Origin: Puniceicoccales bacterium | GTDB lineage: Bacteria; Verrucomicrobiota; Verrucomicrobiia; Opitutales; UBA953 | Length of the DNA stretch: 64,000 nucleotides | Assembly: GCA_031256995.1 (NCBI GenBank) | Contig: JAIRPL010000016.1 | Span: 1-64,000, forward strand | Direction of reading: 5' to 3' | Shown: one piece after another, positions 6,882-64,000 of the stretch | How positions within the stretch are numbered: position 1 is the stretch's first letter | How the letters are laid out: every line of letters begins with the position of its first letter | Notes under the pieces: generated by a model | Told to the model about the DNA's origin: nothing | Databases searched by the model: none | The model's input: the letters and a program-made list of their open reading frames with translations, nothing else | Position numbers and translations under genes: made by a program

Positions 6882-6947
6882 GGGGCAGGGACGTGCTGTG
6901 GAAAAGAAAAATGATGGCGTTGTGCCGTGGCGCGCGGACGCGCAGGC

Positions 6948-7181
6948 TCAGGCGGCGTCCGGCTCGATTTCGATGGTCGCGGCCTCGGAGCGGCGAATGG
7001 TCACGCTCTGGTTTTGAAATTCAATTTCAAGCGGATCTCCCAAGGGGGCGGAACGCGCCAGGCGGACACGCGTTCCGGGAAGGAAGCCAAAGGCCAGCAG
7101 GCGCTGTTCGACAGGCCGTTGCGCGTCAAGACGTGTCAGACGCCCGGTCTGCCCGGTTTTCAAGGTGGCGAGAGTAGTCAT
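6948..7181 (-). CDS. feoA: ferrous iron transport protein A
   Basis: Small cytosolic SH3-like protein that supports FeoB. It has 77 residues from the ATG at 7181 (MTTLATLKTGQTG). The frame extends upstream to 7292, but those residues do not fit the family. The typical FeoA pattern is present: LKTGQTGRLTRL, LLAFGFLPGTRVRL, GDPLEIEFQNQSVTIRR. Gene order feoA-feoB on one strand with a short gap indicates an operon. A 19-bp imperfect inverted repeat lies just upstream and may be the iron-responsive site. Confidence 0.9.
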   Translation of the reverse strand: MTTLATLKTGQTGRLTRLDAQRPVEQRLLAFGFLPGTRVRLARSAPLGDPLEIEFQNQSVTIRRSEAATIEIEPDAA

Positions 7182-27361: not shown

Positions 27362-27419
27362 CGGCCTCCTTGTGCCACATTCCTGCCATGTAAGAAGTGA
27401 AAAAGGCGCCCGGTGTTTC

Positions 27420-45857: not shown

Positions 45858-48242
45858 ATGCATTCCACCCTTGTTCATGATATTGCCATTGTGCTGATTG
45901 CCGCCGGGGCGGCTGGCTGGCTTTGCAAGTGCCTTGGATTGTCCTCCATCGTGGGCTATTTGCTCGCGGGCATTGCCATTGGTCCGAACGCGCCGTTGAA
46001 GCTTATCTCGGATGAGGCCAGCATCAATGGGCTTGCGGAGGTGGGCCTCGTCTTCGTCATGTTCGCCATCGGGCTGCAGCTTGGCTTGAAGAAACTCGCG
46101 GGGATGGGGTTGCAGACCATTTTTGCGACGATGCTTGGGGCGGTGTTCATGCTCTTGCTCACGTTGCTGCTGGGGCAGGTTCTTGGCTGGGAGTACCGTC
46201 AGTGTCTCTTCCTTGCCGCAATGCTCATGGTCTCCAGTTCGGCGGTCATTGCCAAGGTCATGCAGGAATTGCACCTCACGCACGACAAGATGGCGCAGAC
46301 GGCGCTGGGTATCACGATCAGCGAGGATGTGGTGGCCGTGGTCATGCTCACGATACTCGCCACGGTCACGAGTGCCGCGGGTGACGCCGGTGGCGGGGGC
46401 ATCGTCTCTGGAGTCGGGCAGGTGGGATCTGTTTTCACGAGCATCAGCTCCTTTGTCATCCTGGTGCTTGCCTCCTGCCTGCTTTTTGTTCCGAGGCTGG
46501 TGCGCAGGCTGGAGCTTTCCGGCGACCCCGACCTGCGCAATGTGGGCGTGGCGGGGCTGTTGTTGATCCTTGCGTTTTCCGCCCGGGAGGCCGGTTTTTC
46601 ACTGGCCCTTGGGGCGTTTCTCTTTGGCGCCATAATCGCCGAGCTGCCGCAAAAGGATGCCTTGGAGAAATCTTTTGACAGTGTGCGCAGTATTTTCAGC
46701 AGCCTCTTCTTTGTCTCCATCGGCATGATGGCCGACCCGCGCTCGCTGTTTTCCGCCGACGTGTTGCTGCTCACCGGCGTTTTGCTGCTTTTCACGATGC
46801 TCGGCCGTCCTGTGGCCTGCGGTCTGGCCATGCTGCTCACGGGTTCCCCGCCCAACGCGGCGCGGCGAAGCGGCCTGTTGCTCACGCCTTTGGGGGAGTT
46901 CACCTTTCTTATCGCCCAGCTCGCGGTCTCGGCAAAGGTGTTTGAAAAGCACCTCTATCCCGTGGCCATCCTGCTTTCCGTGCTCACGGTGCTTGCCACG
47001 CCGTTCATGAACCGCCATGCCGACGTCATCCTGAGGGTCGCCATGAAATTGGAGCCTCGTTTCATCACGCGTCTCATGGCGCTTTACCATGTCTGGCTCG
47101 AAAAATTGAAGAATCGCCCGCCGCGCGGCGTGGTGTGGAAGCTTGTCGCGCCGAAGCTTCTGCAGAGCTTCCTCGAGTTGCTTCTGGCCACGGGCATCGT
47201 GATATTTCTGCCGCAGTTGCAAAACACGGCCAGGGAGTTTTTTGAACGCATTGCGCGCAAGTTGCATTGGGGGGCGGCAGGCGGGGGCGAGCTTGTCCTG
47301 CAAATTCTTTTTTGGTCGGTCACGGGAATCATGGTGACCGCCCTGTGGTGGTCCATCTGGCGCAATGCGAAGGAAGTCATCCCGCCATTGGCCCGCAGCT
47401 TCAGCAGCACTTTCCTGCCGCGCCAATTGCTGGCCTCGGCCTTTTGGGTGCTTTTTGTGATGGTTTCGGTGATTTGGCTCACACTGCTGCTGCCGGCATG
47501 GTTTTCGACTTTCTCGGCCTATGTGCGGGTGCTCCCCTTCCTGTTGCTGCTCGCCGCCGTTGTGGGCGCGGGGTTGTATTTCTCGCGCCAATTGACCGTC
47601 TGGCGGAAGTCTGTCGAGGACGCGCTCGCGAGGGACGGGGGCGCGGGGCAAGGCGGGGATCCTGTGGAATCCTCGCGTGAGGGCGCGTGGAACCGTTTTG
47701 CGGGAGAGCTTGGCAGCTGGGACATCCACCTTCAGGACTGCGTCCTGCCTGAGAACGCGGCCTGTGCTGGCGAATCCCTTCGCAAACTTTCCATCCCGTC
47801 CCGCTTTGGCGCGTCGGTGGTCTCCATTGACCGCAATGGGTTCCTCATTTCCAGCCCGGGGCCGGAGACCCGGCTTTATCCCGGTGACCGGCTTTCGCTG
47901 CTTGGAAAAAGCGCCGAGATCCAGGCGGCCCGGCAATTTCTTGGCGAAAGGAGACCCTTGGCCGGCTCCCCGGCCTCACAACCCATTCTTGAGACTTGCA
48001 TCGTCCCGCCGGGGCCGAGCGCGGGCAAAAGTCTTGCCGAGCTGCGCCTTGGCGACGTTGCCGCCATCCGCGTCGCGGGCATTCAGCGGGACGGGCGCCA
48101 CATCGTCAACCCCTCCGGCTCGGAGATTCTTCACCCGGGAGATTCGTTGCTTGTCATGGCCGAGGCGGCCCAATTCAGGAAATTTGAGAAGTGGCTCGCC
48201 AGCACCAGCGTCCATGCTGCCACAGCTTCCGCCGTCCCGTGA
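45858..48242 (+). CDS. CPA2-family monovalent cation:proton antiporter with two RCK_C-like domains
   Basis: 794 residues. Residues 1-390 are a CPA2/KefB-like antiporter core of 12-13 helices: SSIVGYLLAGIAIGPNAP, LVFVMFAIGLQLGLKKL, the discontinuous helix LMVSSSAVIAKVMQEL, ISEDVVAVVMLTILATV and FFVSIGMMADPRSLF. A second membrane part (about 430-590; FLELLLATGIVIFLPQL, WSVTGIMVTALWWSIW, ASAFWVLFVMVSVIWLTLLL, VLPFLLLLAAVVGAGLYFS) is followed by two TrkA-C/RCK_C-like domains (about 620-690: ASVVSIDRNGFLISSPGPET, LYPGDRLSLLGK; 710-780: AAIRVAGIQRDGRHIVNPSG, LHPGDSLLVMAEA). It exchanges K+ or Na+ for H+; the two C-terminal domains suggest ligand gating. It is not the minimal KefB. Confidence 0.9.
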   Translation: MHSTLVHDIAIVLIAAGAAGWLCKCLGLSSIVGYLLAGIAIGPNAPLKLISDEASINGLAEVGLVFVMFAIGLQLGLKKLAGMGLQTIFATMLGAVFMLLLTLLLGQVLGWEYRQCLFLAAMLMVSSSAVIAKVMQELHLTHDKMAQTALGITISEDVVAVVMLTILATVTSAAGDAGGGGIVSGVGQVGSVFTSISSFVILVLASCLLFVPRLVRRLELSGDPDLRNVGVAGLLLILAFSAREAGFSLALGAFLFGAIIAELPQKDALEKSFDSVRSIFSSLFFVSIGMMADPRSLFSADVLLLTGVLLLFTMLGRPVACGLAMLLTGSPPNAARRSGLLLTPLGEFTFLIAQLAVSAKVFEKHLYPVAILLSVLTVLATPFMNRHADVILRVAMKLEPRFITRLMALYHVWLEKLKNRPPRGVVWKLVAPKLLQSFLELLLATGIVIFLPQLQNTAREFFERIARKLHWGAAGGGELVLQILFWSVTGIMVTALWWSIWRNAKEVIPPLARSFSSTFLPRQLLASAFWVLFVMVSVIWLTLLLPAWFSTFSAYVRVLPFLLLLAAVVGAGLYFSRQLTVWRKSVEDALARDGGAGQGGDPVESSREGAWNRFAGELGSWDIHLQDCVLPENAACAGESLRKLSIPSRFGASVVSIDRNGFLISSPGPETRLYPGDRLSLLGKSAEIQAARQFLGERRPLAGSPASQPILETCIVPPGPSAGKSLAELRLGDVAAIRVAGIQRDGRHIVNPSGSEILHPGDSLLVMAEAAQFRKFEKWLASTSVHAATASAVP

Positions 48243-48682
48243 GGTTCCACGTTGTGACATGCCCGTTTTTTTGCCTTCATTTGTCCAAAGAAATTACCAT
48301 CCTTCCGCGCTGTCCCATCGTTTTTTCCCCTCACGCTCGCCCATGAATAACACCCGGAATAAAGCTGTTTTTTCAGCAGACGCCTGCCTCCGATCGCAGG
48401 CCGGGCAGCCTGTTTCGGTGTCAGGACACCCTCGCGGTCCTTTGATCCTGGGAAACGCGCGGTGCGAGGGCATGTTTTTTTCATGTCTGTGTGATTGCCC
48501 GGCGGATGCTGCCTTTTTGCCGCCACCGACGGCGTGGGCATTTTCACACACATGCCGGATCGGCCAGGGAGAAACGCGCGGCGCCCCCGGATTGCGCGCC
48601 TCCGTTCCCGCCATCCGCTGGATCTCGAAAACAATTTTGAAATCAACAACTTAACGAAAACAACATTTGACCTGCTTTCCTC
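48243..48682. other. intergenic stretch upstream of the giant gene
   Basis: 440 bases with no credible gene. Just before the giant gene's ATG the DNA becomes A/T-rich (48630-48670), where a promoter is likely, but neither the -35/-10 pattern nor a Shine-Dalgarno site is convincing. A TGA stop (48668) precedes the ATG in frame. No clear terminator for the antiporter gene was found. Confidence 0.5.
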
Positions 48683-51600
48683 ATGACACACAACGCCATC
48701 CCCCAGTCTTTTGATGCCACAGCCACCGTGGCCGGCGCCCCGCGTTCTTGCGCTGCCCTTGGGCGTGTTCCCATGGTCCCGCGTCCCAAGGCCGTCTCCT
48801 TTCCCCGTCGTTTTTTTGCCGCCGCCGCCCTCGCCGCAGGGCTTGCCTCGGCTCCCTGTGCCCCGGCCGCCACCCTTTACTGGATAAACACCACCACCAA
48901 TTGGTGGACCAATAATCCCCCAGGAAGCTCGGCGGACCTGCATTGGCGTACCAGCGGGACCGCCGTAAATCGCACGTGGGTGAATGGGGAAAATAACCAG
49001 GCGGTCTTCACAATCAACGCCCCGGGTGACGGCACAACTTGGGGTTCGACACCCACCCAGGAGGTTCCGTTTGGCAACGATAGTCGTGAACCCGCGATTG
49101 CCGATCTGGTCGAAAATGGCGTGGTCACGCGTTATGGGATCACGGTGGAGTCCGGGAATTTTGTTTTTCTTTCAAAGAAAAACAACAGGCAGATTCTTTT
49201 TGGAAGCGGCGGCATTGAGATTCAGACGGGGGCGTCGCTGACCCTTCAAAAAAGCGGAACCGTTTACTACGAATATACCGGTGACACGGTCATACGACAG
49301 GGCGCCACCCTGAAATTGACGCATGCGGATGCTTTTTCCGGGGCGACGGAAACACCCCTGACGAAGTGTGTCGTGCAGGGAACGGTCCAGGTTTCGGCCA
49401 ATAACTCGTTGGGGGCCGTTGATTTTGATGGCGGCACAATTGGCGTCACTGCCGGCACCCTCCGGCTTCGTGGCAATATCACCGCTGGAGGCGGGGCGGA
49501 TGCCTCCAACGTCCTCGTTTCCACCATTACTGCGAGTCCCTCGGTGCAGATCGGCTCTGTCGCGGCATCGCCCCGGCTTTCGGTGGATGTCGCCCGGCAC
49601 GGGCGTCTGGACATTGGCGCGGTGCTCGCCGATGGCACGTCGGGAGCTGGCGCCGCTGCCGCGTCATCCCTCGAAAAATCCGGGCTGGGGGAATTGCGTC
49701 TCTTGAAGGCGGCCACCTACACAGGTGACACGGTTATCAACGCCGGCACCCTTTCGCTTTTTGAGGCGGGCGCTGTCGCCAATTCGGCCAAAGTCAATCT
49801 CGCCGCCGCCGCCGCGACTTTTGACATTGCCGGGATTTCCGCAGGCACCGCAAAAATCAAAAATCTCGCGGGTGTCCTTGGGTCCCAAATCTATCTTGGA
49901 GGCAAGACACTTGAGATTGCTGGCGAAGGTTCGTTTGCTGGAACCATTGCTGATGGAAGTGTTGCGAATGGCGGGGAAGGGAAACTGTCCCTCACGGGCG
50001 GGACGCTTTCGCTCTCGGGGGAAAACACCTATGCCGGGCAGACGACTGTGAACGGCGCAACCGCCGCCTTGAAGCTCGTCGGGGCGGCCACGCTCGCCTC
50101 AAGCGACGTCCATTTGTTGAACAGCGCCGTCTTTGATATTTCCGGGACGCTGTCCGGGGCGGTCGTCAAAAAAATCACCGCGACCTCGGACACGGGTTCC
50201 GGCACAAGCGTGCGTTTGGGTTCCAAGACACTCACAGTCCAAGGTTCCGGGGTGGCTTCTTCGGAGTTTGCCTTCCATGGTTCCATCCAAGGTTCCGGTT
50301 CGCTCACGCTCGACGCGGAATCCGAACTGTTCTCACTTCAAGGAGCGAACACCTATGCGGGCGATACGCTCATCAACCATGGCACGCTTAAGGTCCAGGG
50401 AACCGGCGGCGCGCTTGGCGCGGATAACGCGAGCAATTATGGCGGCGCCATTGTCCTGGCCAATGAGGATTCGCTGTTCGCGTATGCCGTGGGTGACGCC
50501 GGGAAAATCCAGACACTTTCCGGTGTGGTTTCGGGGCTGGGTTCAATTGCCAAATCGGGTAATTCCACGCTTACGCTGGCCGGCCAAAACAGCTATTCCG
50601 GTGCCACAACCATCTCGGGCGGAACCTTGCGTGCGGCGGCCGACCAAGTGCTTAGCGCAAACAGCGTTGTGTCGTTTTCTGGTGCGACCGTCTCTCTCGA
50701 TATTGCCGGGACTCGCCAGACAATCGCAGGGTTGTCTTCCAGCTCCATCAGTAACAGCGCAAAAGTTCTTCTCGGAGCGGGTGTGCTCACAGTCGCGCCC
50801 ATTGTTGATTGCTCTTTTGGCGGCGTGATCCAGGGGACTGGCTCATTGGTGAAAACGGGATCCGCCACGCAGGCGTTTTCCAATGCCCAAGATTACACTG
50901 GAGCCACGAATGTTTTAGGGGGGGAGCTTGCGTTGTCCGCAAGCGGTTCGATTTCGAAGTCATCCGGCGTCATGCTTGCCAATGCGGCGACATTTTCCAT
51001 TGCGGGTCTTTCGAGTTCCACCGGGGAGTATGCCTCGTTGTCCGGGGACAGCACCGGCATCGGCACCGTTATCCAATCCCTTCAAAGTGCCTCTTCCGCG
51101 AGTGTTGTGAACTTGGGGGCGAACAACCTCCTGGTTAACGGCGACTTTTCTTTTTCCGGACGTGTGACGGGTACAGGGACGCTTCATCTGAAAGATTCGG
51201 CCGGGGCAATCAACGGGAATGTCCTGTTTCAATCCTCTGTGAATTTTACCGGATCCAGTCCGGTCAATATTGTTTCCAACTCGGGGGTTGTGATGCTTGA
51301 AGGCCCCGCTGTCATCAAAGGCGGCTCGGGCGTTTCTCTTTCCGGCGCGAACAATATTTATTTCAAGAGTGGGGCCACCATCGAAGCTCCTGCCTCGGGG
51401 TCGACGCTTCAAGTTGCCCTTGACGAAGGCGCGATTGCCAAGTTCTCCGGAGACACGCACATTGGCGCGCTTGATGGTGACCGTTATTCTGTCGAGGTTT
51501 TCTCTGGCGAACTCCATGTTCAAAACTCAGGTGGGCAGTCTTTTGCGACGGATGGAAAAATTAGAATTGGCGCCGGGGCCACTTTATCAGGCGCCGGTAC

Positions 51601-54600
51601 GATCCGTTCTCCGCACATTGACATCCAAGGTACGCTCCGGCCTGGATTTTCCTCCTCCGAGACATTCTCTTGGGACGATAATGCCAATGCGCTCGCGCTT
51701 TCCACAAGCTCCGGCAACGGCGGCGGGACTCTTCGTTTTATCACCAGTGGCAACACATTGAATTTGGCTGGTGGCACCATCATTATTCCCAGCTTCGGTC
51801 CGAACGGCGAAGTCGGAAATGTTCGGGTGGATGGCGATGACGCCAATCCCGGTCATATCCATTTTTCGGGATCGGTCACCGTGGCGCCCGATCTTTTCAG
51901 TTATTTCAGCAATGCCTCTGCGGGAAGTTCGAAAGATTACAAAATAATTTCGGCGATCGACGGCTTGTCAGTGCCAGCGAAGATTGATGCAGGCTCCGGG
52001 GAAACGCCGCTTGATCAAGGCAATTTGTCCTCGTACATCACCATTGACGCCTCTTACCCAGGGAAAGGGGGACGTTATTCGCCGTATTTGGAATATGCGA
52101 GCGATCCCGATGGAAAATACATAAAACTTTTTATTGTGAACACAGGAACCCCCCAGACTCTTCACTGGGACGGGGCCAAGGGTAATATCTGGCAGAATGC
52201 CAAAACGAGTCAAGAGGCTGATGCCACGAAGAATTGGCATGGGGCTGCGGATCCCACGGGTAGTGGTTTTTTCCAAAATGGCGACCACGTGGTGTTTGAT
52301 TCAGCAGGGATTGGCGCATTGAATGTCAGCATCGCAAGCGACGGCGTCGTGGTGGGTTCGATGAAGGTGGCGGAATCTGTGAGTTATACTTTTGATGCCC
52401 CGTCTGCCACCACGCTTAAATCCACAGGTGCATTGACTATCGGAGATGGCGTGTCAAGCGCGTCGGTTGGATTTAGCGGAAATGTGACAATTTCCTCCGA
52501 AGGCTTGGAAATCATGGGGGCGAATGTGGGATTTGGGGCGCCTGTTGGTGCGCGCGCCGGTGGTGTTTCCATTTTTGGGGAAACAACCACCGATACAAAC
52601 GTCACATTCAATTCCTTGACGAGTGAGGGCGGTTTCCGCATCGAAAATGACACGGCGAATGCGCATGTGATTGTTCAAAGCTCCTTTAGCAATACCGCTG
52701 GAGATGTTGTTGTCGGTAATTCGGCCACAGGAAATGGATTGACGTCCACGGTTGAATTCCGGGGCGAGGTTAGAACGTCCGCAGGAGATTTCATTGTGGA
52801 AAACACGGGCAGGGCCGTTTTTAAAAGTAAGGATTTTGAAGGAAACATCAAAGACAACATTTACATTGAGGATGGCGGTCAGGTTGCTTTTGACAATCCA
52901 TCGATTCTTATTCGTTATAACGGTGTGATTTCCAGCACGGGAACTCCCACCGGAACCGCCTTGTTGGTTAAGGATTCAACGGCGCTTGATTTGCGTGGCG
53001 GGAATACGTATGCGGGAATTACGGAAATTGGGAGTTCCGCGACATTGACTCTCTGGGAGACTGGAAAAATAGAAAATTCCTCCACGGTTCTTTTGAGTGG
53101 CTCCGGGGCGACTTTTAACATTTCACCCGCGACGGGTTCTGTGGAATTTCCGAATGGACCTGGAGCTTTTGATCAGGGTGTCAAAATTAAAAACTTGGTC
53201 TCGGACAAGGCTGATTCGATTGTGAATGTGGGTGGCAACCTGCTTCATATTCAAGACGCGTCGGGTGTCTATGCGGGGATATTGAAGGGAAGCGGAAAAT
53301 TTTACGTTGCCAGTGGAAACTTGGATCTCACCGGAGACAGCGCCACCTTGGCTCCCGATAATTTCACAGGGGAAATTGTTGTGGGTGGCAGCGCCAAGCT
53401 GGGAATTGGGAGTAATGGCCGCATTTCGACTTCCTCGCACGTCTCCTTGCTGGGAAATGGGGTGTTCGATATCAGCGGGGCGACGGCGGATGTTTCAATA
53501 AGGGATCTTTTGAGCCGGACAACCGAGAGCACCGCAAAAGTGATTCTCGGTTCAAACAAGTTGGAAATTACCGCTGCCGGATTTGGAAATCCCAGTGCGC
53601 TTTCCGGAGTTGATACAGGGAAATTTACCGGAACGATCGAGGGGGCTGGCGGACTTGTTCTCTCCGGAGGGAATCTTATCCTGACCGGCGCAAGTTCTTT
53701 TGAGGGGCCGACGCAAATCACGGGGGGGCCGCTTCCGGCTGTTTTGTCCTTGGTTGGAAATTCAGCTTCCATCTCCAAGTCCTCCCTGGTGGAACTTTCC
53801 AATTTTGCCGGGAGTAAATTGGACATATCCAGACTCACTGGAAAAACAGGGGATTACGGGACGTTTGCTTCCGCAGGTTCCTATACTCTCCCAAATGCAG
53901 GAACCAGCATCAAGGGAATCTCTGGAGGTGGACTGGCCGGAGGTAATGTCGATCTTGGAGAAAACGCGCTGCTCCTCAAAGGGAGTGCTTCCTTGGTAGG
54001 GAAAATCTTTGGCGGCACTAATTCCATGTTCATTGTGGATGGGGGTTCGTCCTTGACGATCACTACCGCCGCCACCGAGGGACGTTTTGGGAACGATAAC
54101 TTTCATGGTTCGTTGTTGCTTAACGGAGGATCCCTCTCCGTGGCGCAGGTCACGCAACTCGGCTCAAACTCTTCCAAGCTGCTCTTCAATGGCGGAAATT
54201 TCTCTGTGACCGCCCCTGCGGGGAGCCTTTTTGATCTTTCTTCCAAGGGGGTGTCCGCCCTTGGTGATAACACGCTTCATTCCATCCCCGGTTCTGGCAT
54301 TCCTGCCACGATCAAGTTTGGCGATGTGGATGGCACTGGAAGTTTTTCCAATTCCACGACGGGGCTTGTCCAGATTGGCAATTTTGAGGGGACGATTGCC
54401 AAAAATAGTTGGAGTATCGAATCCGGAAAAACCGTGGGCACGGTGGCTGCTGACGTTTCGCGTCTGGCTGTGCATGGCTCGGCCGTGACCGGCATGGCTA
54501 CCATCCGGAATCTTGCCGGAATCAGTGGGTTGACATTTGACCTCCGGGTTGAGGCCGGGACAAACAATGTCGACAATTTCCTTGTTGCGAGCAGCGGCGG

Positions 54601-57600
54601 AGGCGCTGTTTCCCCGACACTGATAGGATCAGGGAATGTCATTAAACTGAGCGCCTTTGAGTTGGGATCGACCTATGAGCTTGTCACGCAAGAGGGCGGT
54701 TTTTCCTCTCTTCCCGCAGGCTCTGTCCATGACGTTTCCTCCTCCTTTAGTTTGCAACTGCCCGGCGGTAGTTTCCCGGGGGGCGGATCGGGGCGCTTGG
54801 GAACCAAGGTCCTTGTGAAGGATGCCTCGTCCCAAGGCCAGGTGCTTTATCTCACCTCCTTCCTGCATAATTTTGCGCTGACTTGGGTTGGCGGAGACCC
54901 GAACGGCCCTGCGAAATGGCAAAACTGGGCGGGAACAAATGACCTTATCAACTGGAGTGCGACTGCTTCCTCTCAAGCCACGGATTATTTTGTGGCCGGG
55001 GACGTTGTGACATTTGATGCGGTGGGTGTCGCCCGGAATTCGGTCACTATCGCTGACGATGTGAATGTTGGCGCCATGACGGTCGCGAACGCAGCCTACA
55101 CTTTTGTCGGAAATGGAAAAACGATTTCCGGCAGGGCAAGTCACACGGACACAAGTTCAGGCCTTTCAAGTGTTTCCACCGGCCTGTTGTTGATTGACAA
55201 TGCCACGGCTGTTTTCGGCACAGGTGTCGCGCTCGATTTCGAGGGCTATCGCCTTGAAAATTCCTCCAGCGCGACATTCAACAACGCGTTCAATCTTGGC
55301 GAAAATGGCGCGCCGCAATCGCAGCTTTCGATTGTTGGGGATTCCACTCTCGTCATCGCCAATGCCACGGCCGCAGCTTTCACCGCGTCGTCCTTGAGCA
55401 ATGTGATCCAGCTTGGCGACGATAGCGGCAGTTCTGGCACGAAAGGGACCCTGCGCTTTGAGGTCAATGGCGGTTCGACTGCCTATGCTTTTGGCTCTGG
55501 AACAGGGGGCGCTGCGACAACGCTGAAAATCGCGAATGCCGGCGGCGTCATTGATGTTCAAGGTGGTGGGAGCGGTGGAAGCTCCTTGAAGGTGCAAATT
55601 GGCCAATCCGTCACCGGTCTTGATGGGACTGCCGCGACGGGCCTCCTTTCCAAGACTGGCTCTGGCACTGTGGAATTTCTTGGCGATGTCGCGGTTCGCG
55701 AGATTGCCGTCACGGATGGGGTTGCCGTTTTTGGAAACCAAGCCCTTGGGGGAAGTGTCACCCTCGGCGAAGGCGTTGTGGCTGGCTCAATCATCGTCAA
55801 CAACGGTGCTTCCGCGCAATTTTGGGACAACACGGCATTTGCCCTTTCCGAGCAAGGCACCGTTACTCTTGGTGATACCACCCAAGGGACCCTTGCCATT
55901 CTCGATAGCGGTACCGGCACGGCCGGTGCGGACGGGTTGGTTGCCCATAATTTTGATGCCGGGTTTGGCACTGACGCGGGCATCGTCCTCGGCGGGGCGG
56001 GTGGCGTTTTCCACGTCGCCTCAGGCCTGAACGTGATCTTGGCCAATGGGGTTGACGACGTCACAGGCCAGAGCGGCTTGTTGATCAAGGAAGGGCAGGG
56101 GATCCTGACCCTTGCCGCCACGGCCGCAAGCACTTACACCGGAGGCACCGAGGTTCGCGAAGGCCGTCTGGTCATCAACGGCCTTCTGGGTGCCACTTCC
56201 GGCGCGGGAGATTACGCGGGCGGCATTGCCATTGCCGCCAATGCCGGGCTTGTGTTTGGCGACACTGCCGCCGCCGCGTCGCAGAAAATCTCCGGGGTGA
56301 TAGGTGGCTACACACCATCCTCTGGTTCAACGGGTTATGGCTCCATCGAAAAACTTGGCGCGAACACCGTCACTTTTTCCGGCAATGTGGATGCAAACCA
56401 GATCGTCATTTCCGGCGGGGCGGGTGCCGTCACCATCTTTGGCGATGTTGTGACGCCGACCACCGTTACGCTTCACAAGCAAGGAACCGCCGCCCCGTCC
56501 TTCACCGTCAAGGGCGATGCCACGGGCAGAATTTTGAGCAACACCGCCTTGACCTTCGACGCCGCAGCCAAGGTGGTGCTTGGCGAGGATGCGAATATTG
56601 GTGCTTCGATTGCGGACTCTTCCGGAAATCTCGCTTTCGCTAATGTCGGCACGGGCACCAGTGGATCACCAGAGACCCTTTTCCCTTTCGCCGCCGCCCA
56701 TGACGTTGAAATCAATCTGCGTGGCGATGGCGCCAATATTGGCGTGGTCGCCGGCCTGAGGGTTGTCCTTTTGGCTTCAATTTCCGGTGCTGACTCTCCT
56801 GTGTTCGTCAAGAGCGGCGATGGCGAGCTTGTGCTTCCGGATGCCGGAGCGCTCGAAAATTTTGGCGGCAAAGTGCAAATTGACATGGGTGCGAGCGGCA
56901 CCTCTGACGCTCCGAAAGGCGTGCTTGAAATCGGGGCGGACCATTTCAAAAACGCCCTCGGCGGTGATGGTGTTTTGCGCGTCAACGTCGCCACGAATGA
57001 ATTCCAGGGGCCGCTTGGACCTGTTCCCGCCGCCTATCCCACGAATGATTTTCATTTCGGCACCACTGTCGGCACGGATTTTGCCGGCACCATCGAGCTT
57101 GCCAATGCGACGCTCTCTTTGGCTGCCAGTACTTCTCCGGTTAATCCTGGTTCTGGCGCCTCCCAAGAGGCGCAAGATGTCTACGCTGCCGCTTTGGCCG
57201 ATTACACCGCGCAGAATGAAGGGCGCACGAATGCCGGCATCTTGCGCGGCACTGGCCCGGTGCGTCCAACACTGCAGCTTGATGGCCCGGTGCCCGACAC
57301 TGCGGACATCAACGGGACGAATGGTGGCACGGCTGTCGTGCAGCCCCGTGCGGATGGTGCCGCCGTCATTATTGGAAATCTTGTCGGAAAGGGTGGCTTG
57401 CTTGATTTTGCCACTTCCGCCCTCGAGCTTGCGTCCCCATCGCTTGTCGTTGAGGACCTCGATGTGCGCGAAAACTTGAAGTTGCGTGTTGTCGCGGTGG
57501 GTCTCTCCAACGGCATTTCCATTCCAACTTATTACACCGATCCCGACCGGAATATTCTGGATTTCTGGAGCGGGGCTTCGGGGCCGGCGGGACGGTTGCT

Positions 57601-60600
57601 TGTGCAGGCCAACGGCAATGTGCAGGGTGGCAATCTGAACCTTCAATTCGTCAATAACAAGGGCACCGTCATGAATGCCTCCCAACAGGGGGACACGATT
57701 GCCATCTACGACCCGACCAACGGCAATGATGCCAGCGCGCCGCGCACGGGATTCGCGCTTTTTGACTATTCGGCAAATGTGCAGAATTCCGCCGGACTTG
57801 GCGCAGTGAATGGCATTTACATCGACTATGCCCTCTCGTCGATAACCGCGTATGCCGAAGGCGCGTCCACCGTGAATGGTTCGGGCAATCCGGCCGCAGC
57901 CCCCGGCGTGGTGACGCTCAATGCGGGCGATGCCGCCAATCCCAAGCTTTCCGCAAAACTCCTTGGGGATGGCGGGTTTGCGTTTGTCAATGAGCTTCCT
58001 GTCGGCGCGAACGCTTCGCGGCGTTCCCTGGATGTCGGCAATGCCGAGAGTAATTACGCGGGCAACACCCGCATCTCCAATCTCGATGTCACCGTTCTTC
58101 ATCCCAACGCCTTTGGAGCCACGGCGGAGCTTTTGCTTGTCGGAGACGCCGCTGCCTCCAAGGCCGCCCGCTTGGATCTCGTGAAATATGAGGGAGCCGA
58201 CAATTCGCCGGAAGCTTCCGCCACAGTCAGCAACCTGACGGTTTCAAAGCTCACGGGTGGACAAAACACGGAGATTCATCTCGGGAAAAGTTGGCACACC
58301 GACTCGGCCGAGCTTGTGACCGCCGCCACCCTCACGGTCGGCAGCGCGAGCGCGCCCGCCGTCCCCACGGCTGACACCGGCGAATTTGAGGGCGTCATTT
58401 CCGGTCTCGGGAACCTTGTCGTCCAAGGTGACGCCACCCACTCCGGCGTAAACGGCGTCTCGCTTACCCTTTCCAACGCAAACACCTACACGGGCACGAC
58501 CACCGTGGGCGAGGCGGCTGTGCTTGCGCTTAAGAAAAACGCGACCTCGGGCACTCTTGGCGGCATCGCGGCATCCTCCGACCTGCGCCTTGGTGGCACC
58601 ACCGGGACGTCCGCCGTGTTCGACATTGAGCAGCTTGGCGACGCGAATGCCGCCGGGGTTGCCGTCATCCGCAACCTGAACACCCAGGGTCTCCCGACTT
58701 CCGCGGCCCTTGACGCGGGAACCAAGATACTCTTGGGCGCCAACACCTTGCAAATCGGCCTCAATGGTTCCGCCGATACCGGAAACGGCGTCTTTCATGG
58801 CGTGATTTCTGATGCCGCGAGCAGCGTCGGCGCCGATGCCCTTGTGAAGTCAGGTTCCGATGCGAGCACGTTCACGCTCGCCGGACAAAACACCTACCAG
58901 CGCCGGACTGTCATTGAGGCCGGCACACTTGCCGTCACAGGATTGCTTGGCGCCGGGAGTGACCTCGTCCATGGCGCCTCCCCCACCCATGCCGCCCATG
59001 TCCACACGAATAACTATGAGGGGGAGATTCGCATCCCCTCCGGGGCCAGGCTGGTGCTTGATGCCTCGCTCGCCATGGGGAATCAGACGTTTTCCGGGGA
59101 GATCCTTGGGGGCGCTGGCACGCCTTCTTATGGATCCATCGAAAAGAAAAACACCAATACCGTGGCTTTCTTCGGGCCGGTTGCTGTCAACACCCTGACG
59201 CTCACGGGCGGCAATGTCCTTTTTGGCGACGCGGAAAGCGCGGTGCGGGTTGTTTTGAACTTCGCGGATGGCACCTCCACCGGGGCGCCGGCCGTCTCCA
59301 TCTCTTCCGGAGCTGTCGCGCACGTTTGGGACAACACGAACCTCGAATTCGCCGCCGCGGCGACCATCTCCCTTGGAGATGCCTCGACCACGGGCACCTT
59401 GCGCATTCTCAATCATGAGCTGCCACACGAATACGACGCCACCGCGGAGCTTTGGAAAACCTCCTCCGCCACGGCGACGGCCCCAATCGCGCTGGCATGG
59501 ACGTTTGCCGCCGGCACCGTCGTCAAACTCGGCAACGGAGGCGGTGTCTTCTTTGTTGAGGACGGGGTGAATGCCACTTTCGCCCCCGTGTTTTCGAATG
59601 CCACAAGTTATGGCGCGCTCATCAAGCGCGGTGACGGCACGTTGACGCTTGCCGGCCTGCACAATGATTACTCCGGCCCGACCACCGTGGAGGAAGGCGT
59701 TCTCCACGTGACAGGTCTGCTCGGTTCATCCGACGGTTCCCTCGAGGGTGATTACTACGCCGCCATTTCGATCGCCAAGGGCGGCGCGGTCATTGTCGAA
59801 AACGACACCCACGTGCAGAGACTCTCCAATGTCGGCGGTTTTGATCCCGATGGCGCGGGGTCGGCGCCTGCCACGTATGGCACTTTTGTCAAACGCGGCG
59901 CGAACAAGCTTGTTCTCAACCAGCTTGTCGACGTGAACCGTTTGGAAATCACCAATGGGACCGTGGATATCGGCGAGCGGGGGCTGCCTGCCGTTGTCAC
60001 ATTGCGCAAGGCGGATGACGGCTCGAATGTTGTCGCCCCATCGGACCCTGGCGCGCCATCCCTTGAAATTTCCGGCGGTGCGACCGTCCGGATCTGGGAT
60101 GACACAAAGGTCTCCATCGCGGATCCGGGGACCCTTGTCTTCGGCTCTCCCGCCGGTTCTTCCGCCGCCACGCAGGGGACGCTCATCATTGAGAATTCCA
60201 GCAGCCCTGCCGTCGCGAAAAGTTTTGTGCTTGGCTGGAACGCGGCCACCAACACCACCTCCGCGCATGGCACGGAGATCCATCTGCGTGGCCTCGGTGG
60301 CGTGTTTGATGTGGATGCCCAGCTTGAGGCCGTTCTGCTGCCGTGGATTTCAGGTGAAGGCGCCCTCGTGAAACGCGGCGCCGGCGCCCTTTCCCTTTCC
60401 GGCCGGAACTCCTTCACCGGCGGCGTCACGCTTGAGGACGGGAAACTCGTGCTCGGCGCGGAAATTGACTTTGACGAGGATTCCGTGCCCGACCTCGTTG
60501 GGAGCGGCAGGGCGCTTGGCGTCGCCTCCAATCCCGGCGCCAATGGCGCGTCCGCGGGCTGGATAACGGTGCCGTCAGGGAAATCCGGCAATGTGGAGGT

Positions 60601-63600
60601 CCGCACAAGCGTTGAAACCTCAAACCACTATGCTGTTTCCGGAGCGCTTGCCCTTGCCGCCGCGAGCGATGCGGTGTTCGCGCTGCGGGATGCCCTGGTC
60701 TCTGGCAATGGCGGCGCGATCGATGTTGTCGCTGGCGGGGCCGTGACTTTCACCGGGGGCGGGACGTATCTTTTCTCCGGCAATAAATCCGGAGGTTTGG
60801 GTGGCGCGATTTTCAGCAAAACCAAGCTCGTCCTTGGTGGCACAAACGAGAATTTCCATTTTGCGGCGGATAATTATTCCTCGTGGAATGGTTCAGCGGG
60901 TGTTGCGAACTCCATCTACTTGGATAACGCCGCCCTCGAGGTCAAAGGTTCTGGCTATACGCGCTTTGATGCCCCGGTCATCGGGGTTGGAGGGGGGGCG
61001 ACGTTTGACAAAACAGGCTCCGGTGTTGTCGTTTTTGGCGCGGATTCCGATTTTGGTGCCGCTTTCAACGCCTCGGCGGGGGTTCTCCGCCTTGAAAACA
61101 ATGCCGCGGTCACCACGGCGGCCGCCGCCAAACTGGGTACCTCGGTGCGTGTCGAGGGGCGTGGCTCACTCAATGCCGCTTCGTTTGCCTTGGGGCCTCT
61201 CGTTTTTGCGCCCGATTCGGCCGTGTTCACGCCGGGGCAACCGCTTTTTTCCAATCCCGCCTCCGATGTCGGCCGCTACGGAAAATTGACTTTGTCCCCT
61301 GCGGCTTTGAGTTCAACCGGCAACAATGGACCGCTTGTTTTTGAGTTGGATGTCAACGGAGGATTTTCCGGGAGTGACACCACCCCTGGCGTCACCCATG
61401 ACAACGTGCAGGTGCTCAATGCCCCGCTGGGCTTGACCTCCAGCGTTCCTGAATTCGCGCTCACCTATTTTGACGCCGCCACGCCTGCCGCGCGTCGTGA
61501 TGCCACATACACCCTCATTTCAGGCAACATCGCGTTCATGCAGGCCGGCGATGGCGATCTTCCAAAGTTCGGGGTTGCCGGTTCGACCGGTTTGTTTGAC
61601 GGGATTTATACCCTTAAAGACCAAAATGGAAATCCCCTTGTCCCGGCTGGCGAACGGCAGGTGTTCACCGTTTTCTATGAAGACGCCGGAACCAACGCCG
61701 CTTTTGCCACCCCGAATGCCGCCACGGATCCTGGGTTGAAATTGTCGGTCACGAACAACGCCAATCTCGCCCTCATCTGGAATTCCGGCAGCGGCAATTG
61801 GTTGGAAGATGGCGCAAGCGTTGATGGCACGGGCTATCCGCACTGGCACACCGCCACCAAGCCCAACCTCGCCTTTGTCGATGGCGACTCGGTGAGCTTC
61901 CTGCCGCTTGGCGCCGGCGTTTCCGAGACGATCCATCTTCGCGATTCCGCCTCCGACACCGTCGCCCATGTCATCCCCGTTGCCGCCATGAACGTCGCGG
62001 CTGGCGTGCGCGAATTCACTGGCGCGGGCGCCATCGTCTCCGCTGACGTCGCCCATTTGCCGCCGCAGACCTCCTCCGCCTCCTTCCTGTCGAAGAAACT
62101 CACCCTCGCCAATGGCGCGAGCGTGACGTTCTCCAACGAGGGCGGCATCCAATTTGACGGCGGGATCCACCTTGGCGACTCCGCCACGTTGCGTCTTGCC
62201 GGAGACTTCGGCGTCAACGCCAGCCTGGCGAGCACGACGTCGACAACGGTGCAAGACGGCGTCCTGGCCTCCGTCATCCGCGATGCCTCGCCCGGCGTTG
62301 TCGGCAATGTCGCCTATGCCGGCACCCATGCTTACAGCACGGAAACGCGCAACACCCCCTCGACCTCCCGTCTCACGCTTGGGGCCGACAATTCTTTCTC
62401 CGGCAACCTCACCGTGGAAAGAGGCCGCTTGATCCTTGCGGGCGACAATTCCGCCAGTGCCACGCGGGGTGAATACCGTGTTCTGAACGGCGGCGCCCTA
62501 GAAATTTCCAGCAACCGGAATGTGAGCAGTGACGCGTCGCAATACAACCGCCTTGTCCTCGAGGGTGGCTCCACCCTGGTGCTTCGCCAATACACACCAC
62601 TTGCCGGGGAAAGCAGCCCGGCGGGCGGTCACGCCTATTCCTCAAACTGGGCAATTGCCGCGCCCACCTCCGCCGGGACTCTTGTCACCTTTGAAACGCC
62701 GGATTCCGGCACCGTGCGTTTTGACGGCACCCTCTCGGTGGCTGCGGGCGACGCCCTTCACTCCTCCACCGTCTCGCTGCGCAAGACGGGTGCCGGCCGG
62801 CTTCTGCTCATGTCCGCCCCGACGTTGACCGCCTTCCGGGGGGCGACCACGGTCTTCGACGGCACGCTGGCCCTTGGGGGCGCGGCCAGTCTTTACCCCT
62901 CGGCTTCCCTCACGCTGCGCGATGCCGCCGTGTTTGACATCACCGGCGTCAATGCCGCGACCGCGGTCAAAAATCTGGCCAGCAACCTGAACCTTGCGAC
63001 GGCTGACACCACGGAAGTCCTGCTGGGCGGAAACACGCTCACGGTCGACATCACGATCTCCAACGCGGATTTTGGCGGAACATTCGCCAATGCCGGCACG
63101 CCCGCCGGGACGGCATTTTCCCTGCGCAAAACCGGGGCCAGGGACTGGACTCTCGCGGGTGACAGCTCCCGCGCCTACTCGGGTTCCACGCAAGTCGCGG
63201 AAGGGCGCGTCATCGTCGCGAACATGGGCGCGCTTGGTTCTGGCGCCGTCGTGCTTCATGGCGAGGGATCCACACTTCGTCTCGACTTTCAAAACGGGGG
63301 CGTTTTTGCCAATGATCTTTCGCTGGGCGCCGTTGCCGCAGCGGATGAGAGGCATTCCAACGGAATCCTGCTTCACGATTCGGGCAATCTTGCCGTTCTG
63401 GGCGGCACCTCGACGGATTTTGCTGGAACGGTCCAGGTGGAGGCTGGCTCCACCCTCGCCATCCGCGCCGCCGTGAATCTTGGAAAATCCGTCCTGTCCC
63501 TCGGCGGCTCCAGCGCGGCCCTTGCCGGCGGCACCCTTGCCGTTGATGGCACGCTTGACGCCGCGTTTTCCTATGCGACGACCCCGTTGCTGCTTGATGC

Positions 63601-64000
63601 GGTCCGTTCGATCGGGCTTGGGTCCCACAACGGTGGCACGATCCATGTGGGTGAAACCGTGGCGGGCGGGGATGTGCTTGCCTTGCGCGTGAATTCCAAG
63701 ATCGAGAACGGTTTGGCGGGCACGGAGGATGCCGCCGGCAAGTACTCCCTTGCGAAAACAGGCGCCGGGGTCCTTGTGCTCGGCTCCGACGAAAACAGCT
63801 ACACCGGGACCACATTCCTGCTTGGTGGCACCCTCGCCCTCGCGGGCGGCGGCACCGTGGCCTCCTCCGCGGGCCTCGAAATTTCCGACGCCGCTGTGTT
63901 CGACCTCGCCAGCCTCACGGCCGCCCAAACGGTTGTGCAATCCCTCCGCTCCGCCGGAAACCTTGGCACGGCGGCAACCTCCATGGTCCGCTTTGGAGAT
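48683..64000 (+). CDS. giant secreted PATR-type autotransporter-like protein, 3' end outside window
   Basis: One reading frame, open for 5,106 codons from ATG 48683 to the last base; the stop lies beyond the window. A long signal peptide is likely: charged head (RPKAVSFPRRFF), hydrophobic AAAALAAGLASAPCAPAA, cleavage near residue 63; an internal ATG at 48773 gives a shorter head. The rest is almost pure beta-helix-like sequence, Gly/Ala/Ser/Thr/Asn-rich, with repeated PATR-type motifs (NTYAGQTTVNG at 50023, NSYSGATTISGG at 50587, NTYTGTTTVGE at 58481, NSYTGTTFLLGG near 63797). Such repeats form the passenger part of type V autotransporters in many bacteria, and Opitutaceae carry many of them. 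The membrane barrel is not seen. Four header segments, each like the start of a separate passenger, lie at 48881, 52166, 54884 and 61778. The protein is probably cell-surface or secreted, perhaps binding glycan or host surfaces; this is inference. Confidence 0.9.
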   Translation, partial: MTHNAIPQSFDATATVAGAPRSCAALGRVPMVPRPKAVSFPRRFFAAAALAAGLASAPCAPAATLYWINTTTNWWTNNPPGSSADLHWRTSGTAVNRTWVNGENNQAVFTINAPGDGTTWGSTPTQEVPFGNDSREPAIADLVENGVVTRYGITVESGNFVFLSKKNNRQILFGSGGIEIQTGASLTLQKSGTVYYEYTGDTVIRQGATLKLTHADAFSGATETPLTKCVVQGTVQVSANNSLGAVDFDGGTIGVTAGTLRLRGNITAGGGADASNVLVSTITASPSVQIGSVAASPRLSVDVARHGRLDIGAVLADGTSGAGAAAASSLEKSGLGELRLLKAATYTGDTVINAGTLSLFEAGAVANSAKVNLAAAAATFDIAGISAGTAKIKNLAGVLGSQIYLGGKTLEIAGEGSFAGTIADGSVANGGEGKLSLTGGTLSLSGENTYAGQTTVNGATAALKLVGAATLASSDVHLLNSAVFDISGTLSGAVVKKITATSDTGSGTSVRLGSKTLTVQGSGVASSEFAFHGSIQGSGSLTLDAESELFSLQGANTYAGDTLINHGTLKVQGTGGALGADNASNYGGAIVLANEDSLFAYAVGDAGKIQTLSGVVSGLGSIAKSGNSTLTLAGQNSYSGATTISGGTLRAAADQVLSANSVVSFSGATVSLDIAGTRQTIAGLSSSSISNSAKVLLGAGVLTVAPIVDCSFGGVIQGTGSLVKTGSATQAFSNAQDYTGATNVLGGELALSASGSISKSSGVMLANAATFSIAGLSSSTGEYASLSGDSTGIGTVIQSLQSASSASVVNLGANNLLVNGDFSFSGRVTGTGTLHLKDSAGAINGNVLFQSSVNFTGSSPVNIVSNSGVVMLEGPAVIKGGSGVSLSGANNIYFKSGATIEAPASGSTLQVALDEGAIAKFSGDTHIGALDGDRYSVEVFSGELHVQNSGGQSFATDGKIRIGAGATLSGAGTIRSPHIDIQGTLRPGFSSSETFSWDDNANALALSTSSGNGGGTLRFITSGNTLNLAGGTIIIPSFGPNGEVGNVRVDGDDANPGHIHFSGSVTVAPDLFSYFSNASAGSSKDYKIISAIDGLSVPAKIDAGSGETPLDQGNLSSYITIDASYPGKGGRYSPYLEYASDPDGKYIKLFIVNTGTPQTLHWDGAKGNIWQNAKTSQEADATKNWHGAADPTGSGFFQNGDHVVFDSAGIGALNVSIASDGVVVGSMKVAESVSYTFDAPSATTLKSTGALTIGDGVSSASVGFSGNVTISSEGLEIMGANVGFGAPVGARAGGVSIFGETTTDTNVTFNSLTSEGGFRIENDTANAHVIVQSSFSNTAGDVVVGNSATGNGLTSTVEFRGEVRTSAGDFIVENTGRAVFKSKDFEGNIKDNIYIEDGGQVAFDNPSILIRYNGVISSTGTPTGTALLVKDSTALDLRGGNTYAGITEIGSSATLTLWETGKIENSSTVLLSGSGATFNISPATGSVEFPNGPGAFDQGVKIKNLVSDKADSIVNVGGNLLHIQDASGVYAGILKGSGKFYVASGNLDLTGDSATLAPDNFTGEIVVGGSAKLGIGSNGRISTSSHVSLLGNGVFDISGATADVSIRDLLSRTTESTAKVILGSNKLEITAAGFGNPSALSGVDTGKFTGTIEGAGGLVLSGGNLILTGASSFEGPTQITGGPLPAVLSLVGNSASISKSSLVELSNFAGSKLDISRLTGKTGDYGTFASAGSYTLPNAGTSIKGISGGGLAGGNVDLGENALLLKGSASLVGKIFGGTNSMFIVDGGSSLTITTAATEGRFGNDNFHGSLLLNGGSLSVAQVTQLGSNSSKLLFNGGNFSVTAPAGSLFDLSSKGVSALGDNTLHSIPGSGIPATIKFGDVDGTGSFSNSTTGLVQIGNFEGTIAKNSWSIESGKTVGTVAADVSRLAVHGSAVTGMATIRNLAGISGLTFDLRVEAGTNNVDNFLVASSGGGAVSPTLIGSGNVIKLSAFELGSTYELVTQEGGFSSLPAGSVHDVSSSFSLQLPGGSFPGGGSGRLGTKVLVKDASSQGQVLYLTSFLHNFALTWVGGDPNGPAKWQNWAGTNDLINWSATASSQATDYFVAGDVVTFDAVGVARNSVTIADDVNVGAMTVANAAYTFVGNGKTISGRASHTDTSSGLSSVSTGLLLIDNATAVFGTGVALDFEGYRLENSSSATFNNAFNLGENGAPQSQLSIVGDSTLVIANATAAAFTASSLSNVIQLGDDSGSSGTKGTLRFEVNGGSTAYAFGSGTGGAATTLKIANAGGVIDVQGGGSGGSSLKVQIGQSVTGLDGTAATGLLSKTGSGTVEFLGDVAVREIAVTDGVAVFGNQALGGSVTLGEGVVAGSIIVNNGASAQFWDNTAFALSEQGTVTLGDTTQGTLAILDSGTGTAGADGLVAHNFDAGFGTDAGIVLGGAGGVFHVASGLNVILANGVDDVTGQSGLLIKEGQGILTLAATAASTYTGGTEVREGRLVINGLLGATSGAGDYAGGIAIAANAGLVFGDTAAAASQKISGVIGGYTPSSGSTGYGSIEKLGANTVTFSGNVDANQIVISGGAGAVTIFGDVVTPTTVTLHKQGTAAPSFTVKGDATGRILSNTALTFDAAAKVVLGEDANIGASIADSSGNLAFANVGTGTSGSPETLFPFAAAHDVEINLRGDGANIGVVAGLRVVLLASISGADSPVFVKSGDGELVLPDAGALENFGGKVQIDMGASGTSDAPKGVLEIGADHFKNALGGDGVLRVNVATNEFQGPLGPVPAAYPTNDFHFGTTVGTDFAGTIELANATLSLAASTSPVNPGSGASQEAQDVYAAALADYTAQNEGRTNAGILRGTGPVRPTLQLDGPVPDTADINGTNGGTAVVQPRADGAAVIIGNLVGKGGLLDFATSALELASPSLVVEDLDVRENLKLRVVAVGLSNGISIPTYYTDPDRNILDFWSGASGPAGRLLVQANGNVQGGNLNLQFVNNKGTVMNASQQGDTIAIYDPTNGNDASAPRTGFALFDYSANVQNSAGLGAVNGIYIDYALSSITAYAEGASTVNGSGNPAAAPGVVTLNAGDAANPKLSAKLLGDGGFAFVNELPVGANASRRSLDVGNAESNYAGNTRISNLDVTVLHPNAFGATAELLLVGDAAASKAARLDLVKYEGADNSPEASATVSNLTVSKLTGGQNTEIHLGKSWHTDSAELVTAATLTVGSASAPAVPTADTGEFEGVISGLGNLVVQGDATHSGVNGVSLTLSNANTYTGTTTVGEAAVLALKKNATSGTLGGIAASSDLRLGGTTGTSAVFDIEQLGDANAAGVAVIRNLNTQGLPTSAALDAGTKILLGANTLQIGLNGSADTGNGVFHGVISDAASSVGADALVKSGSDASTFTLAGQNTYQRRTVIEAGTLAVTGLLGAGSDLVHGASPTHAAHVHTNNYEGEIRIPSGARLVLDASLAMGNQTFSGEILGGAGTPSYGSIEKKNTNTVAFFGPVAVNTLTLTGGNVLFGDAESAVRVVLNFADGTSTGAPAVSISSGAVAHVWDNTNLEFAAAATISLGDASTTGTLRILNHELPHEYDATAELWKTSSATATAPIALAWTFAAGTVVKLGNGGGVFFVEDGVNATFAPVFSNATSYGALIKRGDGTLTLAGLHNDYSGPTTVEEGVLHVTGLLGSSDGSLEGDYYAAISIAKGGAVIVENDTHVQRLSNVGGFDPDGAGSAPATYGTFVKRGANKLVLNQLVDVNRLEITNGTVDIGERGLPAVVTLRKADDGSNVVAPSDPGAPSLEISGGATVRIWDDTKVSIADPGTLVFGSPAGSSAATQGTLIIENSSSPAVAKSFVLGWNAATNTTSAHGTEIHLRGLGGVFDVDAQLEAVLLPWISGEGALVKRGAGALSLSGRNSFTGGVTLEDGKLVLGAEIDFDEDSVPDLVGSGRALGVASNPGANGASAGWITVPSGKSGNVEVRTSVETSNHYAVSGALALAAASDAVFALRDALVSGNGGAIDVVAGGAVTFTGGGTYLFSGNKSGGLGGAIFSKTKLVLGGTNENFHFAADNYSSWNGSAGVANSIYLDNAALEVKGSGYTRFDAPVIGVGGGATFDKTGSGVVVFGADSDFGAAFNASAGVLRLENNAAVTTAAAAKLGTSVRVEGRGSLNAASFALGPLVFAPDSAVFTPGQPLFSNPASDVGRYGKLTLSPAALSSTGNNGPLVFELDVNGGFSGSDTTPGVTHDNVQVLNAPLGLTSSVPEFALTYFDAATPAARRDATYTLISGNIAFMQAGDGDLPKFGVAGSTGLFDGIYTLKDQNGNPLVPAGERQVFTVFYEDAGTNAAFATPNAATDPGLKLSVTNNANLALIWNSGSGNWLEDGASVDGTGYPHWHTATKPNLAFVDGDSVSFLPLGAGVSETIHLRDSASDTVAHVIPVAAMNVAAGVREFTGAGAIVSADVAHLPPQTSSASFLSKKLTLANGASVTFSNEGGIQFDGGIHLGDSATLRLAGDFGVNASLASTTSTTVQDGVLASVIRDASPGVVGNVAYAGTHAYSTETRNTPSTSRLTLGADNSFSGNLTVERGRLILAGDNSASATRGEYRVLNGGALEISSNRNVSSDASQYNRLVLEGGSTLVLRQYTPLAGESSPAGGHAYSSNWAIAAPTSAGTLVTFETPDSGTVRFDGTLSVAAGDALHSSTVSLRKTGAGRLLLMSAPTLTAFRGATTVFDGTLALGGAASLYPSASLTLRDAAVFDITGVNAATAVKNLASNLNLATADTTEVLLGGNTLTVDITISNADFGGTFANAGTPAGTAFSLRKTGARDWTLAGDSSRAYSGSTQVAEGRVIVANMGALGSGAVVLHGEGSTLRLDFQNGGVFANDLSLGAVAAADERHSNGILLHDSGNLAVLGGTSTDFAGTVQVEAGSTLAIRAAVNLGKSVLSLGGSSAALAGGTLAVDGTLDAAFSYATTPLLLDAVRSIGLGSHNGGTIHVGETVAGGDVLALRVNSKIENGLAGTEDAAGKYSLAKTGAGVLVLGSDENSYTGTTFLLGGTLALAGGGTVASSAGLEISDAAVFDLASLTAAQTVVQSLRSAGNLGTAATSMVRFGD
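48881..52165 (+). other. giant protein module 1
   Basis: Residues 67-1161. The header (YWINTTTNWW, with DLHW and QAVF following) is succeeded by roughly 100-residue PATR units carrying NTYAGQTTVNG, NTYAGDTLINHG, NSYSGATTISGG and DYTGATNVLGG. It closes with a segment containing YKIISAIDGLSV and KYIKLFIVNTG, immediately before the next header. Confidence 0.65.
52166..54883 (+). other. giant protein module 2
   Basis: Residues 1162-2067. The header (WDGAKGNIWQNA, TKNWHG, NGDHVVFDSAG) looks like the start of a separate passenger domain. Two weaker PATR units follow (NTYAGITEIG near 53003; SSFEGPTQITGG near 53697). The module ends with STYELVTQEGGF and QVLYLTSFLH before the next header. By eye this module is less GC-rich than the rest of the gene. 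Confidence 0.6.
56191..56860 (+). repeat. long-period repeat, copy 1 of 3
   Basis: Order of elements: LLG, GDYAGGIAI, VIGG, YGSIEKLGANTV, VTIFGDVV, VTLHKQGTAAPSFTV, then INLRGDGANIGVV. It is the most divergent copy: its WDNT-equivalent and LIK-G segments are degraded. An earlier half copy (55720-56190) has SIIVNNGASAQFWDNT, GTLAILD, GGVFHVASGL and LLIKEGQGILTLA. Confidence 0.5.
58940..59715 (+). repeat. long-period repeat, copy 2 of 3
   Basis: About 258 residues: VTGLLG, NNYEGEIRI, GGAGTPSYGSIEKK, LFGDAESAV, GAPAVSISSGAVAHVWDNT, ISLGDASTTGTLRILN, GGGVFFVEDGV, YGALIKRGDGTLTLAG, DYSGPTTVEEGVLHVTGLLG. It matches copies 1 and 3 in element order. Confidence 0.6.
59716..60450 (+). repeat. long-period repeat, copy 3 of 3
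   Basis: About 245 residues: VTGLLG, GDYYAAISI, YGTFVKRGANKLVL, VDIGERGLPAVVTLRK, GAPSLEISGGATVRIWDDT, GTLIIENSS, GLGGVFDVDAQLE, GALVKRGAGALSLSG, NSFTGGVTLEDGKLVLG. It lies directly after copy 2, so these two are in tandem. Confidence 0.6.
61778..64000 (+). other. giant protein module 4, incomplete
   Basis: Residues 4366 to at least 5106. Header: WNSGSGNWLEDG, YPHWHTA, DGDSVSFLPLG. PATR-type motifs follow: NSFSGNLTVERG (62388), AFRGATTVFDG (62827), YSGSTQVAEG (63176) and NSYTGTTFLLGG (near 63797). The module continues past the window. Confidence 0.6.

Follow-up and report, generated by a model that had tools for sequence, protein, structure and literature searches.

A 6,985-codon gene of a Puniceicoccales bacterium is predicted to encode a giant autotransporter with a passenger of about five diverged units

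The window analysed here, which covers bases 1-64000 of contig G000:C67 (70,118 bases) in a 2.43-Mb assembly (76 contigs, 89.6% complete) of a Puniceicoccales bacterium, ends inside a giant gene on the forward strand. The part within the window (48683..64000) comprises 5,106 codons; translation of the contig beyond the window gives a gene of 6,985 codons, free of ambiguous bases (N), that ends with TAA at contig position 69640 and encodes a protein of ~701 kDa with a pI of 4.8. The best explanation, in which we place high confidence, is that the product is a giant type Va autotransporter that would remain attached to the cell as a fibre, with a passenger of about five units that probably grew by unit addition.

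The giant reading frame is confirmed as a real and complete gene. The initial annotation described a frame that runs free of stops from ATG 48683, shortly after an in-frame TGA, to base 64000, and left the C-terminal anchor out of view; the frame was found as described, the TGA (48668-48670) lying 12 nt before the ATG, and its extension downstream reaches the stop ~5.6 kb past the window, with a barrel domain in between. The accompanying statement that every other gene is less than a quarter as long does not hold against the visible frame, of which the next longest real gene, encoding a UvrD-type helicase (23432-27490; 1,352 aa), is 26%, but does hold against the full frame (19%). A chance origin of the frame is excluded, because the longest stop-free run in 50 base-shuffles of the ORF was at most 316 codons, between 49 and 259 stops interrupt the five alternative frames of the same DNA, and base composition by codon position looks coding throughout, GC3 being highest or nearly so and GC2 lowest or tied. 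The window part of the gene holds just one direct repeat, a short diverged pair (31 nt, 84%); repeat collapse is therefore not indicated, and tandem-repeat expansion was rejected as well. Minus-strand ORFs of up to 441 aa within the gene (for example, at window positions 56777-58102) appear to be mirrored-frame by-products of GC-rich coding and not genes.

Profile matches to Pfam and NCBIfam place a full PF03797 barrel at the C-terminus of the protein (contig 68834-69574, forward strand, beyond the window), covering positions 1-255 of the 255 in the model (E 8e-39) and also matching TIGR01414 (E 7e-53); the last residues are YRLRF, which supply the terminal aromatic. The nearest solved barrel by sequence is that of BrkA (3QQ2, E 5e-18), and the region preceding the barrel matched Pertactin at E 9e-4 (19.7 bits, below the cut-off of 22) and, weakly, the autochaperone model AC_1 (E 0.62). 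Among the three anchors that had been envisaged, namely a PF03797 barrel, a PEP-CTERM signal and a type IX signal, the first was thus the one found: a PEP-CTERM anchor is rejected by a C-terminus that is a barrel ending in YRLRF, and a type IX anchor by Pfam and NCBIfam scans that returned PATR, barrel and related models without a Por-type sorting domain. A trimeric autotransporter of the YadA type is likewise rejected, the YadA model being absent from the matches and the PF03797 barrel being of full size. With a signal-like region, passenger and barrel all within one uninterrupted 6,985-codon polypeptide, the giant protein is predicted to be a classical monomeric autotransporter (type Va).

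The passenger is predicted to consist of about 6,600 residues of PATR/beta-strand sequence. The designation "PATR-type surface protein" in the initial annotation agrees with matches of PF12951 and NCBIfam TIGR02601 to all three parts into which the protein was divided for scanning, the repeats scoring 90.7, 104.6 and 65.1 bits against a curated cut-off of 27; a local model counts 23 PATR repeats, which are spread over most of the passenger. Scans of the whole protein with Pfam and NCBIfam returned PATR, a POMP repeat and barrel models only, with no catalytic, toxin or binding domain recognised, and the composition is rich in Gly, Ala, Ser and Thr, with Cys almost absent. AlphaFold2 gave an all-beta model (pLDDT 70, pTM 0.72) for a PATR-rich slice of 441 aa (aa 320-760; 49640..50962, forward strand) containing five PF12951 stretches, and a Foldseek search of the PDB with this slice retrieved beta-helices and autotransporters (IgA1 protease, antigen 43, TibA and Hbp), none with E below 0.001. 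A passenger slice also matched an IcsA fragment (5KE1) weakly by phmmer (E 0.002). A continuous beta-helix passenger stays putative, because no Foldseek match had E below 0.001 and the AlphaFold2 model across a unit junction, built from a three-row alignment, reached a pLDDT of 30.

The passenger is punctuated by four tryptophan-rich modules (W-modules) of ~90 residues each, beginning at aa 1160, 2066, 4364 and 6082, with the pattern L-x-W-x-G ... W ... NW ... F-x-x-G-D-x-V-x-F. A model built from other proteins, with the giant protein left out, detects them at i-E 8e-15, 9e-16, 2e-5 and 2e-20, respectively, compared with 0.37 for the best of the shuffled and reversed controls. Unit 1 (aa 65-1159; 48875..52159; all features here are on the forward strand) contains a PATR cluster at aa 330-751, is conserved poorly in relatives, and closes with a passenger-end-like T-module (51755..52159, approximate limits). 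W-module 1 (aa 1160-1254; 52160..52444) begins unit 2 (aa 1160-2065; 52160..54877), which has a GC content of 0.51-0.53 and almost no matches in relatives; W-module 2 (aa 2066-2158; 54878..55156) begins unit 3 (aa 2066-4363; 54878..61771); W-module 3 (aa 4364-4461; 61772..62065) begins unit 4, visible at 61772..64000 and ending at aa 6081 beyond the window; and W-module 4 (from aa 6082; contig 66926-67183, beyond the window) is followed by unit 5 and then the PF03797 barrel. GC content varies from 0.51 to 0.65 along the frame, and its dip to 0.51-0.53 at window positions 51680-54680 (aa 1000-2000), compared with ~0.6 elsewhere, roughly coincides with unit 2. A stretch resembling an ordinary passenger end precedes each W-module, a looser resemblance judged from alignments. 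Homology of the units rests on the W-module and this looser T-module likeness, because BLAST of the five units against each other yields one clear pair, units 3 and 4, with 29% identity over 267 aa. The passenger accordingly reads as about five putative diverged units, arranged head to tail on one barrel.

By inspection, the N-terminus (aa 1-64, RRFFAAAALAAGLASAPCAPAA; 48683..48874, forward strand) is a candidate export signal region, with an Arg-Arg pair followed by a hydrophobic stretch and an AxA-like site judged by eye. The gene may start at ATG 48683 or at the in-frame ATG 48773, since a clear Shine-Dalgarno site is absent at both. An intergenic region of 440 bp (48243..48682) separates it from the upstream neighbour (45858..48242, forward strand), a functionally unrelated gene for a Na+/H+ exchanger with TrkA_C domains; no sigma-70-like promoter emerged from a scan of these 440 bp, and the giant gene seems to be transcribed on its own. 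Beyond the window, directly downstream of the giant gene, lies the start of another secreted-looking ORF (L018, ~6672 to 7119), which leads into Ser/Thr-rich low-complexity sequence at the contig end.

Export is firmly inferred to follow the established pathway. The N-terminal signal would direct Sec export, BamA would insert the barrel into the outer membrane, and the passenger would thread through with its C-terminus leading; the conserved C-terminal part would thus emerge first and the variable N-terminal end last. The emerged C-terminal part would then template or nucleate stepwise beta-helix folding outward, and units added at the N-terminus would leave the initiation of export and folding undisturbed. 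The product would remain attached as a thin fibre, for which canonical beta-helix geometry (20-25 residues in each 0.48-nm turn) gives ~130-160 nm by our calculation. For other type Va proteins, dependence on BAM and SurA and vectorial folding have been either established or proposed (PMC4174580, PMC5895577). BamA was found in 37 of the 38 genomes searched, including all eight congeners; the 89.6%-complete assembly studied here is the sole one without a match, which we take to be an assembly gap because every congener carries the gene. A search of this genome and 18 relatives for TamB (PF04357) gave no match in 18 of the 19, this genome included, though autotransporters abound there; TamB may have diverged from the PF04357 model. 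The initial annotation considered export and folding at this size puzzling; that view is weakened by a 10,429-residue autotransporter reported in 2012 and by the several autotransporters of 4,000-7,000 residues in the same genome.

Conservation is uneven along the protein. The last ~1,310 residues (1,314 aa) align along their entire length with G000_C52c, a paralogue of 1,428 residues from the same genome (30% identity), and are colinear with G004_C160, a sister-species protein of 13,549 residues or more (37-43%), a match that blastp against whole giant proteins missed and that was found with the C-terminal 2,000 residues of the latter; the last 2,300 residues are 39% identical to a contig-truncated sister protein (G008_C49). 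Units 1 and 2 have short matches only (~35-38%) across 57 genomes. Growth at the N-terminal, last-exported end is indicated, because the C-terminal core is conserved and the N-terminal units poorly so; the gene probably grew by the addition of units N-terminal to the ~1,300-residue core of an ordinary autotransporter. Among 21 related autotransporters, longer proteins tend to have more PATR repeats (Spearman 0.83) and more W-modules (0.63), a correlation expected in part because greater length offers more room. It is an even question, in our estimation, whether the autotransporters of Verrucomicrobiota constitute a growth class of their own, with whole diverged units joined N-terminally to a conserved C-terminal core (the last passenger unit and the barrel) on one barrel type, over a range of ~1,400 to >20,000 residues. 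If this reading is true, type Va secretion has no practical limit on passenger length up to at least ~21,000 residues.

The giant gene has many counterparts. There are 16 PF03797 loci in the genome, with frames that total ~49,700 codons, or 6.1% of the assembly. Two contigs (G000:C51, L089, and G000:C60, L023) overlap exactly by 67 bp at their ends and read jointly as a giant autotransporter of 7,020 residues, so the gene in the window is not the longest in its genome. A sister species of the same genus with a 3.1-Mb genome (G004; L036-L043) has barrel-bearing frames of at least 13,549, 10,510 and 10,191 aa and a further autotransporter of at least 5,910 aa (contigs C160, C132, C207 and C134). 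Two 99%-complete genomes from another family of the class contain complete frames of ~21,150 residues with 17 W-modules (G060:C1, L078-L081; PF03797 barrel, E 1e-32) and ~15,260 residues with 13 W-modules (G123:C11, L082-L084), both in draft assemblies and both longer than the 10,429 residues of BigE. W-modules are present in 45 of 195 genomes taken from the phylum. G009:C2 (L062-L064) encodes a PATR/W-module protein of at least 17,228 aa that runs off its contig. The modules also occur on PEP-CTERM-anchored proteins: G036:C33 (L065-L068) encodes one of 12,008 aa, the longest of these, and in the genome studied here five or more W-module proteins carry the PEP-CTERM tail VPEPSTYALCG (L085-L088 and L090; contigs C73, C21, C29, C42 and the start of C60). 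As judged by these motifs, the same passenger type is predicted to use two anchors, barrel and PEP-CTERM, within one family. The exosortase model PF09721 has no match in the assembly that encodes these tails, which may reflect an assembly gap or a divergent enzyme.

The most likely role of the giant protein is that of a fibre for adhesion or cell-cell contact, by analogy with BmaC, a large studied PATR autotransporter of 340 kDa that is an adhesin (PMC8111173); the outer membrane of Akkermansia muciniphila has also been found to contain autotransporter-barrel proteins (PMC4960237). The same analogy weighs against the proposal that the protein, exported normally, forms a structural spacer or a coat layer with no specific ligand, which we consider possible but rather unlikely, even though it would suit the lack of a recognised adhesive domain, the fast divergence of the N-terminal units between species and the numerous giant paralogues that occupy ~6% of the DNA.

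Far less probable is an assembly error, either an in-silico join of two or more shorter autotransporter genes or a collapsed repeat. The assembly is a metagenome-assembled genome of 76 contigs that break at shared repeats, the contig itself ends in low-complexity sequence shortly after the giant gene, and the GC content shifts along the frame as described above; against these stand a single frame with coding periodicity across 20,958 bp without an N, when a frame survives a wrong join just one time in three, together with the near absence of near-exact repeats from the window part, the colinearity of the last 2,300 residues with an independent assembly, and frames as long or longer found independently in other genomes. 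Least credible of all is a specific enzymatic or toxic cargo with the beta-helix merely as its carrier, since although catalytic domains occur on some autotransporters and parts of this passenger lack any family match, the family scans and the Cys-poor composition given above speak against it. An attached, most likely adhesive, autotransporter fibre remains our preferred reading.

Taken singly, the gene encodes a type Va autotransporter that is very large yet ordinary in its predicted mechanism; its importance lies in the series to which it belongs. One lineage with one barrel type has passengers that range from ~1,000 to >20,000 residues, with the first-out end conserved and the last-out end variable. 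Such a natural length series allows questions to be asked about the limits of barrel-dependent secretion, about folding as a driving force per length and about the growth of giant genes; some small genomes devote ~6% of their DNA to such fibres.

Among known systems, the PEP-CTERM W-module/PATR proteins found in this genome and in its family share the passenger modules of the giant protein, but their C-terminus consists of VPEPSTY, a hydrophobic stretch and an Arg cluster, with no barrel. The giant protein resembles the IcsA, BrkA and pertactin types in its BrkA-nearest barrel, its weak match to IcsA and its sub-threshold Pertactin match before the barrel, whereas those proteins have one far smaller passenger in place of about five units. 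BmaC of Brucella suis likewise combines a long PATR passenger with a type Va barrel, but it has half the mass, belongs to a different lineage and is an adhesin by experiment, whereas the adhesin role of the giant protein is drawn by analogy. Giant1-5 of Apilactobacillus kunkeei are extracellular proteins of 3,000-8,000 aa that occupy ~6% of a small host-associated genome (PMC12863079), although this is an analogy only, as they are Gram-positive proteins without an autotransporter barrel. In the largest adhesin group of a 2022 review, passengers span 280-3,333 residues (PMC9289746). Closest in size class is BigE, a type Va protein that has beta-proteobacterial relatives and, at 10,429 aa, was the largest in a 2012 survey (PMC3419190); because it was reported then, giant autotransporters are a kind already known. 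Both BigE and the giant protein are giant classical autotransporters with repeated passenger domains ahead of a single barrel, but the giant protein is shorter (6,985 aa) and of another lineage, and whereas BigE carries a ~300-aa domain replicated eight-fold together with 69-aa repeats, the giant protein has long, unequal and strongly diverged PATR/W-module units; highly similar replication as in BigE was not found, the DNA repeat and the unit 3/unit 4 pair described above being the best of their kind. The newer part is the series itself, in which unequal, diverged units are joined before a conserved core in frames of up to ~2 times the length of BigE, as read from draft assemblies.
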